Shown here: one piece after another, positions 23,135 through 51,060 of the stretch
Layout: the number at the start of each line of letters is the position of its first letter
How positions within the stretch are numbered: the first letter of the stretch is position 1
DNA from: Gemmatimonadota bacterium
Lineage (GTDB): Bacteria; Gemmatimonadota; Gemmatimonadetes; Gemmatimonadales; Gemmatimonadaceae
Reading direction: 5' to 3'
DNA length: 64,000 nucleotides
Assembly: GCA_003134685.1 (NCBI GenBank)
Contig: PLCA01000013.1
Location: 106,373-170,372 of the forward strand
Made by a program: the position numbers and the translations under genes
The notes under the pieces: model-generated
Database searches by the model: none
What the model saw: the letters and a program-made list of their open reading frames with translations, nothing else
What the model was told of the DNA's origin: nothing

Positions 23135-23410
23135 ATGTTTGGCAATCTGGGGTTCCCCGAGCTGTTGATAATCATGGTTGTGATCCTGCTTCTGTTTGGA
23201 GCGAAGCGGATCCCCGAGATCGCGGGCTCGATGGGAAAGGGAATCAGGGAATTCAAGAAGAACATCAACGAGGCGACGCGCGAAGTCACCTCGGAGACGA
23301 AGCCACCGCTGGAGTCGGACACCCAGTCGAGGCTGACGTCGGCGGAGCTCGAGCGGCGCCGCGCTGTCGACGAGGAAGTGGAGCGCCCTGCCCCTAAGAG
23401 GCTGCTCTAG
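23135..23410 (+). CDS. tatA: Twin-arginine translocase TatA/E
   Basis: MFGNLGFPELLIIMVVILLLFGAKRIPEIAGSMGKGIREFKK. Confidence 0.95.
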   Translation: MFGNLGFPELLIIMVVILLLFGAKRIPEIAGSMGKGIREFKKNINEATREVTSETKPPLESDTQSRLTSAELERRRAVDEEVERPAPKRLL

Positions 23411-23426
23411 GTACTGAACGACAAAA

Positions 23427-23474
23427 GAACGGGCGGGAGGCGTCAGTAGCATAGATGCCAGTTTGTCAGTTCAC
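23427..23474 (+). repeat. Left arm of 48 bp terminal inverted repeat around the four-helix-bundle ORF
   Basis: gaacgggcgggaggcgtcagtagcatagatgccagtttgtcagttcac; matches revcomp of 23953-24000 with 2 mismatches. Confidence 0.95.
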
Positions 23475-23566
23475 TACGCCCTGACTTTCCTCTGCGCGCG
23501 ACAAACTGACTGCAACGCGCGTTAAAGGATGTTGGGGAGGCCGGGGCGCGGTGCCTGTTTTGACGC

Positions 23567-23956
23567 GTGAGCGACTTCAAGAAGTTGAAGGTTTGGCGGA
23601 AAGGACACGCACTGGCGCTGAACGTTCATCGTGTCGCAACGCGAATCCGAGGCTCTGACAAGGTCTCGCTGCGCAATCAGATGCTGCGCGCGGCGATGTC
23701 CATCCCTACCAACATTGTAGAGGGAACGGGCCAAAAAAGCGGGATGGAATTTGCCCGATTCATCAGCATTTCCCTCAATTCAACATCCGAGCTCGAATAC
23801 CATCTGATCCTCGCGCGGGACTTCGGGGCTATCACGATCAGCGACTTCGAATCCCTCTCATCGCAGGCAATCGAAGTCCGAAAGATGCTTTACGGATTGC
23901 GAAACAGAGTCCTGGTTTTACCCCGAACGCCACGCAAACAAGTCCCGGCGTCGTGA
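23567..23956 (+). CDS. Four helix bundle protein (S23 / 23S rRNA intervening-sequence family)
   Basis: FKKLKVWRKGHALALNVHR...LRNQMLRAAMSIPTNIVEGTGQKSGMEFARFISISLNSTSELEYHLILARDFG. Confidence 0.85.
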   Translation: MSDFKKLKVWRKGHALALNVHRVATRIRGSDKVSLRNQMLRAAMSIPTNIVEGTGQKSGMEFARFISISLNSTSELEYHLILARDFGAITISDFESLSSQAIEVRKMLYGLRNRVLVLPRTPRKQVPAS

Positions 23957-24000
23957 ACTAACAAACTGGCATCTACGCTACTGACGCCTCCCGCCCGTTC
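23953..24000 (-). repeat. Right arm of 48 bp terminal inverted repeat
   Basis: gtgaactaacaaactggcatctacgctactgacgcctcccgcccgttc. Confidence 0.95.
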
Positions 24001-24060
24001 AGTTGCCGTTCAGTTCCCGCCCGTTCAGTTGCCTTACGTGTGATCTCAGATGATGATCGC

Positions 24061-29846: not shown

Positions 29847-31026
29847 AAAAATGGTTCCGCAGGCTCCAAAAATGACTCCGGCGGCTCCAAAGTCGGCCGC
29901 AGCAGGGCCGAGCTTCGACTACAAAGGCGTGCTCCAGCACATGATCCAGTCGAACGCATCGGATCTTCACCTGAAAGTCGGACGGCCTCCGACGCTCCGC
30001 ATCGATGGCCACATGATTTCCATGGAGCTGCCGGCGCTCAAGCAGGAAGACCTGCGCAGCCTCGCCGAGCAGATCATGGCGCCCAAGAACATCAAGGAGT
30101 TCTCCGAGCAGAAGGAGTCGGACTTCGCCCTCGCGGTGCCGGGCATCGGACGCTTCCGTGTCAACGCGTACCAGCAGCGCGGGACGATCGCCTACGCGCT
30201 CAGAACCGTGCCTTTCCAGGCCAAGACCATCGCGGAGCTCAACCTCCCCGAGGTGTGCGAGCGAATTTCGCTGATGCCACGCGGCTTGATTCTCGTCACG
30301 GGAATCACGGGGTCGGGAAAATCGACCGCCCTGGCGTCGATGCTTCACTACATCAACCAGAACCGGCACGCGAACATCATCACGATCGAAGATCCGATCG
30401 AATTTCTCCATCGAGATATCAAAAGCAGCATCAACCAGCGCGAAGTTGGAACCGACACCAATAGCTTCGCCCAGGCGCTGCGTCGCGTGCTGAGGCAGGA
30501 TCCCGACATTCTGCTCGTGGGCGAGATCCGCGACCTCGACACCTTGGACACGGCGCTCAAGGCGGCCGAGACGGGTCACCTCGTTTTCTCGACGCTGCAC
30601 ACGACCGATGCGACGCAGACCATCAACCGCGTCCTGTCGTTCTACCCGCCGCACCAGCAGACCGAAGTGCGCTACATGCTGTCGACGGCGCTGCGCGCGA
30701 TCATCTCGCTGCGTCTCGTTCGTCGCGCCGACAAGAAGGGGAGAGTGCCGGCGGCGGAGATCCTGGTCAACACCGAGGCAGTGCGCGACCAGATTCGCGA
30801 CCTGTCCAAGGCGCTCAACATTCCGGACCTGATCAAGGAGGGTGGTGTCGCCTACGGGATGCAGACCTTCGATCAGTCGCTCATGAACTGGTACCACAAG
30901 GGCGTGATCGCGTACGACGATGCGCTTTTCGCGTCGACCAATCCGGCGGAATTCGCGTTGCGCGCTCAGGGCATAAACGCTTCAAGTGATACCTCCTGGG
31001 ACACCGTTAAACAGGAAGTTACATAG
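29839..31026 (+). CDS. pilT: Twitching motility ATPase PilT
   Basis: GLILVTGITGSGKSTALASMLHYIN; LRQDPDILLVGEIRDLDTLDTALKAAETGHLVFSTLHTTDA. Confidence 0.95.
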   Translation: MAEKMVPQAPKMTPAAPKSAAAGPSFDYKGVLQHMIQSNASDLHLKVGRPPTLRIDGHMISMELPALKQEDLRSLAEQIMAPKNIKEFSEQKESDFALAVPGIGRFRVNAYQQRGTIAYALRTVPFQAKTIAELNLPEVCERISLMPRGLILVTGITGSGKSTALASMLHYINQNRHANIITIEDPIEFLHRDIKSSINQREVGTDTNSFAQALRRVLRQDPDILLVGEIRDLDTLDTALKAAETGHLVFSTLHTTDATQTINRVLSFYPPHQQTEVRYMLSTALRAIISLRLVRRADKKGRVPAAEILVNTEAVRDQIRDLSKALNIPDLIKEGGVAYGMQTFDQSLMNWYHKGVIAYDDALFASTNPAEFALRAQGINASSDTSWDTVKQEVT

Positions 31027-31068
31027 GGAAAGAGTGTCTCGGTCCGCGGGTCGTTCGTTTTCTTCAAC

Positions 31069-31288
31069 AGAACGGGATCCGAGATCTGAGAAGCGTAGAT
31101 CTCAGTTGTTGGTCACTACGCGGAGACGTAACCGGTGCGGCTCGGGGTACAAGCAATGGCAAATTTGCAGGTGATCCATTGAGCAGGGTCGGAGCGTGGT
31201 GACTTAGTTCTGTCATCTGTGCCCTCTGAGATCTCGGATCCCGTTCTCTTCAGCAGTTGAGATCTCGAATCCCATTCTTTTCAGTAGT
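31069..31288. repeat. Intergenic repeat element: 19 bp perfect inverted repeat (31069-31087 / 31229-31247) plus 31 bp tandem repeat (31227-31257 / 31258-31288, 4 mismatches)
   Basis: agaacgggatccgagatct ... agatctcggatcccgttct; tgagatctcgRatcccRttctYttcagYagt twice. Confidence 0.9.
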
Positions 31289-31320
31289 CAGTTTCCGGAA
31301 ACAACGCTTAATGAGCATCA

Positions 31321-32685
31321 GTGTTTAAGAAAGTTCTTATTGCCAATCGCGGAGAAATCGCGCTAAGGGTGATCCGCGCTTGCCGCGAGCTGAGCATCCA
31401 AACGGTAGCCGTCTACTCCGAAGCGGATCGCGAATCGCTCCACGTTCGCTTCGCCGACGACGACGTCTGCATCGGGCCCGCCCCCGCGCGCGAATCCTAT
31501 CTCAACATCCCGCGCATCATCGCCGCCGCCGAGATCGCTGGCGCCGACGCCATCCATCCCGGCTACGGTTTCCTCGCCGAGAACGCGGAATTCGCGGAGA
31601 CGTGCATCGCGTCCAACATCACGTTTATCGGCCCGACGCCGCATCAGATCCGCGTCATGGGCGACAAGGCCGCCGCCCGCAAGACGATGCAGGAAGTCGG
31701 AGTGCCGATCATTCCGGGCTCGCCCGGACCGGTTGAAGACTCGGACGACGCCCTCAAGTTCGCGCGCGAGATCGGCTTCCCGGTAATCATCAAGGCGGCC
31801 GCCGGCGGCGGCGGAAAGGGAATGCGCGTCGCCACCGACCCGGAAGATTTCGCGCGATCGTTCCAGTTGGCGCGGTCCGAAGCGCTCTCCGCGTTCGGCA
31901 ACGGTGAAGTCTACATCGAGAAGTATCTCTCGCGCCCGCGACACATCGAGTTCCAGATCATGGGCGACCGCCACGGCAACATCATCCATCTCGGTGAGCG
32001 CGATTGCTCCGTGCAGCGCCGCCACCAGAAGCTGATCGAAGAGGCGCCGAGCGTTGCGCTCACCGACTCCCTGCGCCAGAAGATGGGTGACGCCGCGGTC
32101 AAGGGCGCGAAGGCGATTGACTACGTCGGCGCCGGGACCATCGAGATGCTGCTCAACGAGGACAAGTCGTTCTACTTCATGGAAATGAACACCCGCATTC
32201 AGGTCGAGCACCCAGTGACGGAAGTGCTGACCGGCGTGGATCTGGTGAAGGAGCAGATTCGCGTGGCGAGCGGCGACAAGCTCTCCGTGAAACCACCGAT
32301 CGAACGCCGCGGCCACGTCATCGAGTGCCGCGTCAACGCGGAAGATCCGGCGCGAAACTTTCAACCGTCACCGGGCCGGATCGATGTGTTCCATCCACCC
32401 GGTGGCCCCGGGGTTCGCCTCGACACCCACGTCTACTCGGGCTACACGGTTCCGCCGTTCTACGATTCGCTCATCGCCAAACTCATTTGCCAGGGGCGCG
32501 ACCGGCCGGAAGCGCTCCGGCGCATGCAGGTCGCGCTCGAGAGCTTCATCATCGAGGGCATCATCACCACTATCCCGTTTCTCGCGCGCGTCATGGCCAA
32601 CAAGCATTTCCAGGAGGGCGCCGTGGATACCAAGTTCCTCGAGCGCGAAAGCCAATTGATGAAGGAGCCACTCAGTGCGGCTTGA
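31321..32685 (+). CDS. accC: Acetyl-CoA carboxylase biotin carboxylase subunit
   Basis: [63 protein letters not shown] start. Confidence 0.95.
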
Positions 32686-37488: not shown

Positions 37489-37550
37489 CGGTCGCTGAGT
37501 CCGGCACTCGAGCGCGACTACCCCACGAGAATACCGAAGCAGGGGGCTAA
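37462..37550 (+). repeat. Direct duplication of the histidine-kinase C-terminus (HENTEAGG-stop) at 37462-37488 and 37524-37550
   Basis: cacgagaataccgaggcaggcggctga / cacgagaataccgaagcagggggctaa. Confidence 0.9.
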
Positions 37551-37733
37551 AAGCTTCACAGCCTGATCGCTCGGAGCCTATCCGGTGGCGTTCGAGGAAT
37601 CCGCCGAAATGGTCTTGCTCGCCGTGGCGAACCAGTTCGAAACCCGCCGACTCCGAGTCATGCGGAAACCAGTACGCGAGTATGAAAGCTCCGAGCGAAT
37701 CAGCTTTGTTAGCTGACGGCCCCCTGCTTCGGT
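37533..37733. repeat. Inverted-repeat element, ~45 bp arms (37533-37577 / 37688-37733), ~110 bp interior
   Basis: accgaagcagggggc and ctgatcgctcggagc on the left; their reverse complements (one with a 1-nt insertion) on the right. Confidence 0.8.
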
Positions 37734-46757: not shown

Positions 46758-46818
46758 GAACGGGCGGGAGGCGTCAGTAGCATAGTTGTTAGCTGTCAGT
46801 TCACTACGCCCCGACTTT
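46758..46818 (+). repeat. Solo copy of the left-arm repeat seen at 23427
   Basis: gaacgggcgggaggcgtcagtagcatag...tgtcagttcactacgccccgacttt versus 23427-23488. Confidence 0.9.
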
Positions 46819-46865
46819 ACTCGGTGGCGTGCAGGCAAGAGCGCGCGGCCCCTTAGTCACGTCTC

Positions 46866-50987: not shown

Positions 50988-51060
50988 CCGAAGCAGGGAG
51001 CTGAAGGCTTGGCAGCTTTCTGGCCGGGAGCTACCCTCAATGAAGTCCGGGTGCTTCGGA
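50988..51060. repeat. Short element sharing a 23 bp segment with 37534-37556
   Basis: ccgaagcagggagctgaaggctt versus ccgaagcagggggctaaaagctt (3 transitions); inverted tgcttcgg at 51052-51059. Confidence 0.65.

Follow-up and report, generated by a model that had tools for sequence, protein, structure and literature searches.

Among the closest described counterparts of the element analysed here are the intervening sequences (IVSs) of 23S rRNA, whose stems are cut by RNase III. In the IVS of Coxiella burnetii, tandem heptamers with the unit GACAGAT stand just upstream of the S23p gene in a copy number that varies between strains, and a protein of the IVP/S23 family from Xanthomonas campestris, XCC0516, has the form of a homopentameric toroid built from four-helix bundles (PMC4990558). 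Inverted heptameric repeats have been described in Xanthomonas (GGGAATC) and Nostoc, with 70-75 convergent pairs in each Xanthomonas genome (PMC4692102), and the TAACTGA heptads of Beggiatoaceae were reported as direct repeats with one indirect set (PMC4679880). S23/IVP proteins are mentioned zero times in PMC4692102, and S23 goes unmentioned in PMC4679880. A search limited to open-licence PubMed Central found no link between IVP genes and heptad arrays in general.

The element studied here lies in a 64,000-nucleotide window of a Gemmatimonadota genome, in the gap (31027-31320) between pilT, which encodes a PilT-like ATPase and ends at 31026, and accC, which encodes biotin carboxylase and starts at 31321. 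An earlier note on this DNA had described a 19-bp perfect inverted repeat, a 31-bp tandem repeat and a local hairpin at this place, and all three are present. At 31069-31087 stands AGAACGGGATCCGAGATCT, whose exact reverse complement occupies 31229-31247, and over 26 nt (31066-31091/31225-31250) the match still reaches 92%. The tandem repeat, 31227-31257 and 31258-31288, is a duplication at the right terminus (31227-31288) whose two copies are 87% identical, and the left arm holds GAGATCT (31081-31087), a 9-nt loop and AGATCTC (31097-31103). A 187-nt stretch folds into one long hairpin, with an RNA energy of -91.3 kcal/mol and a z score of -6.75 against shuffles (z -5.41 when the same 187 nt are folded as DNA), and a BLAST search of its own genome returned 121 matches, the best non-self match at E 3e-25. 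The z score of -6.75 and the dozens of partial and complete relatives in the genome place the element far from chance. With its terminal inverted repeat, its long hairpin, its genomic relatives and the same insertion in three congeneric genomes, the approximately 180 bp at 31069-31247 are almost certainly a non-coding copy of a dispersed family, here called B.

Copies of B and of a second family, A, were surveyed across the 3.63-Mb, 98% complete genome. Family A (GAACGGGCGGGAGGCGTCAG...) gave 51 arm matches and family B (GAACGGGATCCGAGATCT...) more than 100 BLAST matches. Among the fetched loci, 20 A and 17 B copies are complete and gene-less, each about 180 bp long; both families thus consist, as MITEs do, of short gene-less repeats with terminal inverted repeats and many copies. 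The earlier note had compared the pilT-accC element with copies at 23427 and 46758. The kinship is borne out, since the arms align without large gaps over about 60 nt, but the three are not equivalent: the sequence at 46758-46830 (plus strand), upstream of an asparaginase gene, is a half copy of family A with a single arm, the sequence read there containing no right arm, and what lies at 23427 is one arm, the left, of a complete element. Alignment of 74 arms indicates that families A and B are homologous. Across these arms the positions of CAG/TAG/CAG/TAG are conserved and the letters between them vary, and the feature conserved between the two families is a series of YAG triplets spaced by 7-8 nt. 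Three to four YAG triplets at 7-8-nt steps occur in 56 of the 74 arms, compared with 8 of 1480 shuffled arms, and the arms show periodicity at lags of 7, 15 and 22 in B and of 8, 15 and 22 in A. Both families hold degenerate heptads only, with one 8-nt step. On the evidence of the arm alignment and the YAG chain count, the left arm of the pilT-accC element, with YAG triplets at 7-8-nt spacing, runs from 31069 to 31130 on the plus strand; the right arm, 31186-31247 on the minus strand, has a length of about 62 nt taken from the arm alignment.

The 23427 arm belongs to a complete, gene-bearing family A element of 574 bp (23427-24000, plus strand), with inverted arms at 23410-23487 and 23939-24016 and an orthologue in a congeneric genome, G005. 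Its gene, at 23567-23956 on the plus strand, encodes an IVP (S23, four-helix bundle) protein that matches PF05635 (E 1.1e-30, 106.4 bits against a curated cut-off of 33.8) and TIGR02436 (E 4.7e-29, 100.8 bits against a cut-off of 24). The genome has seven IVP (PF05635) loci, one of them frame-shifted, and all seven have inverted flanks, which fall into four arm families: A (in the window) together with A', B, C (three loci) and D. The frame-shifted gene belongs to family C (L067/L068, C5:601 kb). Gene-bearing copies with arms of the A/B type are A at 23427-24000, A' at C12:645 kb and B at C12:570 kb, and the B arms match the last of these over 103 nt at 82%. Families C and D have gene-less inverted pairs too; in the window, D is present as a non-coding element at 37530-37733 (arms 37530-37577 and 37680-37733) and as a half copy at 50988-51032 on the plus strand, neither of which figures in the earlier note. 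The pilT-accC element therefore very probably derives from elements that carry an IVP gene. Here, as in the IVS of Coxiella burnetii (PMC4990558), inverted repeats that pair into a long stem enclose an IVP/S23p gene; unlike the 23S rRNA IVSs, the present elements lie between protein genes, occur in many copies and mostly have no gene.

The main fold of these elements is the stem of about 60 nt in which arm pairs with arm. This stem is 97% paired, and in B it has 5 double-change cells against 1.0 expected (P 0.001), a count that copies of uncertain orientation may inflate; in A the corresponding figures are 8 against 5.1 (P 0.145). Two arms taken from the same copy resemble each other slightly less than arms taken from different copies (0.784 versus 0.802 and 0.719 versus 0.744 among A and B copies), and the long stem is therefore not clearly kept by compensation. 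The difference within copies is small and looks as if perfect palindromes had been lost.

The association of IVP genes with inverted flanks extends far beyond this genome. We compared IVP loci from the genus (26), from the order (26) and from many phyla (80 loci), including Acidobacteria, Chloroflexi, Nitrospira, Planctomycetes, Cyanobacteria and Methylomirabilota; the phylum-wide sample leans to one IVP subfamily because it was collected with a closer, less diverse IVP alignment. Controls were 20 shuffles of each locus and far positions of the same loci. A null built from mispaired loci was dropped as inflated, the loci having the motif in common, and so was a 99th-percentile array threshold, because the controls contained N runs and real arrays that distorted it. 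The inverted-flank score exceeded every one of the 20 shuffles at 26/26 loci of the genus, 24/26 of the order and 58/72 of the phylum-wide sample, compared with 2/26, 1/26 and 4/64 control positions, and flanks in direct orientation gave no comparable score. Arrays of period 7 were found at 20/26 upstream and 20/26 downstream flanks in the order and at 58/72 upstream and 44/72 downstream flanks phylum-wide (controls 0-2 in each case), with periods other than 7 near zero. In the window's own genus just 7 of the 52 flanks reach the threshold for an array, and the arms of A-D are accordingly best called degenerate.

These arrays have a strict polarity. The consensus (AGCNNTC)n lies on the sense strand upstream of the IVP gene and on the opposite strand downstream of it, TYAG outnumbers its complement 52:7 upstream and is outnumbered 2:44 downstream, and the profile of IVP flanks scores better in the sense orientation in 127 of 141 arrays, which have a median length of 33 nt, or 4-5 units. 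The same arrangement, an IVP gene between facing heptad arrays, occurs on plasmids of Anabaena sp. 90, Calothrix brevissima, Pseudanabaena galeata and Gemmatirosa; the flanks of the Stanieria plasmid gene have weak arrays, and the Trichormus plasmid gene does not lie between facing arrays. On the Anabaena sp. 90 (L250) and Pseudanabaena galeata (L255) plasmids, the four-helix bundle gene that the arrays enclose stands between cas6 and cas4. The pattern (YCAGCNN)3 was far above its reversed control in 11 of 12 genomes of other phyla, genomes that were picked because one IVP locus in each had such arrays. In one genome, G193, the reversed control is as frequent (64+69) as the heptad pattern and perhaps represents another heptad family. 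Among the places listed for G193 and G199, inspection by eye counted 21 plus-then-minus array pairs within 600 bases and zero minus-then-plus pairs; some of these convergent pairs enclose an IVP gene and most have none. IVP genes are thus coupled in general with inverted, strand-specific heptad arrays across many phyla.

The published heptads fit this motif to differing degrees. The Coxiella heptamer unit fits the IVP-flank profile on the opposite strand only. The abundant intergenic heptads of Beggiatoaceae (PMC4679880) resemble the arrays described here in that the reverse complement of TAACTGA fits the profile (top 3.8% of heptamers). Xanthomonas and Nostoc likewise have heptad arrays (PMC4692102), and the structure of one IVP protein from X. 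campestris is known (XCC0516, PDB 2gsc); the Xanthomonas and Nostoc units score unremarkably, with 18.6% of random heptamers scoring as high as the Xanthomonas unit and more than 50% as high as the Nostoc unit, and the proposition that all published heptads are the IVP-flank motif was therefore rejected.

Comparison of congeneric genomes shows that both sites in the window vary in what they hold. G014, G002 and G016 have a B copy in the pilT-accC gap, and the number of its terminal units differs among them. In the same gap, G017 has an IVP element with different arms, G009 a heptad-like inverted element, G010 half of a C element and G004 no element. The 23427 site is occupied in G005 by an orthologous IVP element and in G016 by a tandem array; G014 has just the left arm there, G011 an inverted element that is unrelated, and G013 heptads. 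In G016 (L240), AACTGAACGGCGGG, which comprises two heptads, is repeated at this site, and the contig breaks there. Several copies (flanks of L003, L015, L037 and L062) stand directly after a T run or a terminator-like hairpin. Direct repeats in the flanks occur at the level of shuffled pairing, so that target-site duplication is absent and no insertion event is defined to the base.

The earlier note had taken the local hairpin at 31081-31103 (plus strand) and its counterpart at 23427 as covariation of a conserved hairpin, and a conserved structured RNA with a compensated stem, for example a cis-regulatory element, would account for the self-complementary boxes in both families and for the fold of the B arms alone (z -2.07). 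The covariation does not survive closer analysis. Among the 40 A arms, the fraction of the six stem pairs that form is 0.812, compared with 0.803 +- 0.006 after column shuffling (P 0.11), and double-change cells number 3 where 1.8 are expected; in the 34 B arms the paired fraction equals that of the shuffles and there are zero double changes. Just 13 of the 40 A arms and 15 of the 34 B arms have every stem pair intact (1 of 15 in one B arm type). When the arms are aligned by homology, paired columns satisfy i+j=47 in the A stem and i+j=45 in the B stem, and the two stems are therefore not the same base pairs; the 36 double-change cells obtained when A and B are pooled reflect one event between the families and not repeated compensation. 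In nine additional families or copies (A', C, D and others from the genus), the arms have hairpin energies at the level of shuffled sequence (z -1.23 to +1.03), and an Rfam search of 22800-47300 gave no match. We therefore regard a structured hairpin as very improbable; the B "hairpin" arises because a palindromic unit, AGATCT, is directly repeated inside a degenerate heptad array.

The question of what moves the elements admits several answers. Like REPINs and their RAYT (PMC3116915), the elements pair short palindromic units in inverted orientation, are non-autonomous and intergenic and exist in many copies; unlike them, they have other units and another associated gene, the GTAG-tagged foot was not observed, and the Y1 transposase (PF01797) has no match in this 98% complete genome, although control genomes do match, which makes movement by RAYT scarcely credible. 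The inverted ends, the short gene-less copies and their dispersed intergenic positions would also suit ordinary MITEs, on whose ends a DNA transposase acts in trans and in which the IVP gene is cargo. We consider this unlikely, because target-site duplication is absent, the ends are not exact and grow by tandem units, and the link with a single protein family is maintained across phyla. Alternatively, the arrays could have come first, with replication slippage and template switching making heptads and inverted repeats between which IVP genes settle or are tolerated. The variable number of terminal units between orthologues and the many arrays that have no IVP gene speak for such an origin, but under random settling neither the strict strand polarity relative to the gene nor its placement between two facing arrays would be expected, and we hold it to be quite unlikely. 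A distant profile kinship links one IVP protein (L128) with Avd of the diversity-generating retroelements (NCBIfam Avd model, E 1.5e-5, below the model's cut-off); unlike in those elements, a reverse transcriptase (RVT_1, PF00078) has no match in the genome, and a retro-type element served by an RVT_1 enzyme of this genome was rejected on that ground.

We favor, as the probable explanation, a model in which 31069-31288 is a MITE-like, non-coding copy of a class of small interspersed elements made of IVP gene and heptads, a class that may spread through recognition of the arrays by IVP. In its complete form the element would begin with a heptad array, in which about 4-5 degenerate units of 7 nt have a YAG core, and continue with an IVP gene (PF05635) and then the same array inverted. 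The IVP protein may bind the array on single-stranded RNA or DNA and form with it a recognition end of protein and nucleic acid, perhaps with one unit per subunit, a stoichiometry that we infer from the pentameric ring of XCC0516 together with the strand-specific array, about five units long, at each end. The TRAP protein on GAG repeats offers a comparison in principle for a ring that reads one unit per subunit. Both ends of the element would then present the same strand to the IVP ring, and recognition would let the element and its gene-less derivatives spread. The arms can also pair into one long hairpin, as in the RNase III-cut intervening sequences of 23S rRNA. Judged from sequence, binding of the arrays by IVP is plausible if somewhat short of probable, and a need for IVP in the spread is a more tentative suggestion. 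More doubtful still is the broadest form of the model, in which IVP and heptad arrays constitute a separate class of mobile elements with no recognised transposase or reverse transcriptase, the IVP ring reads YAG heptads on single-stranded RNA or DNA, and many intergenic heptad arrays are gene-less copies of the class.

IVP/S23 proteins have been known for more than 30 years without an assigned function, and intergenic heptad arrays have been the subject of separate reports from several phyla without an agreed origin. The association described here ties this unexplained protein family to these unexplained repeats. Because the two occur together in many phyla, in a fixed order and with a fixed strand polarity, we hypothesize that the arrays serve the protein as its binding site, which, if true, would account for a large set of intergenic repeats in bacteria.
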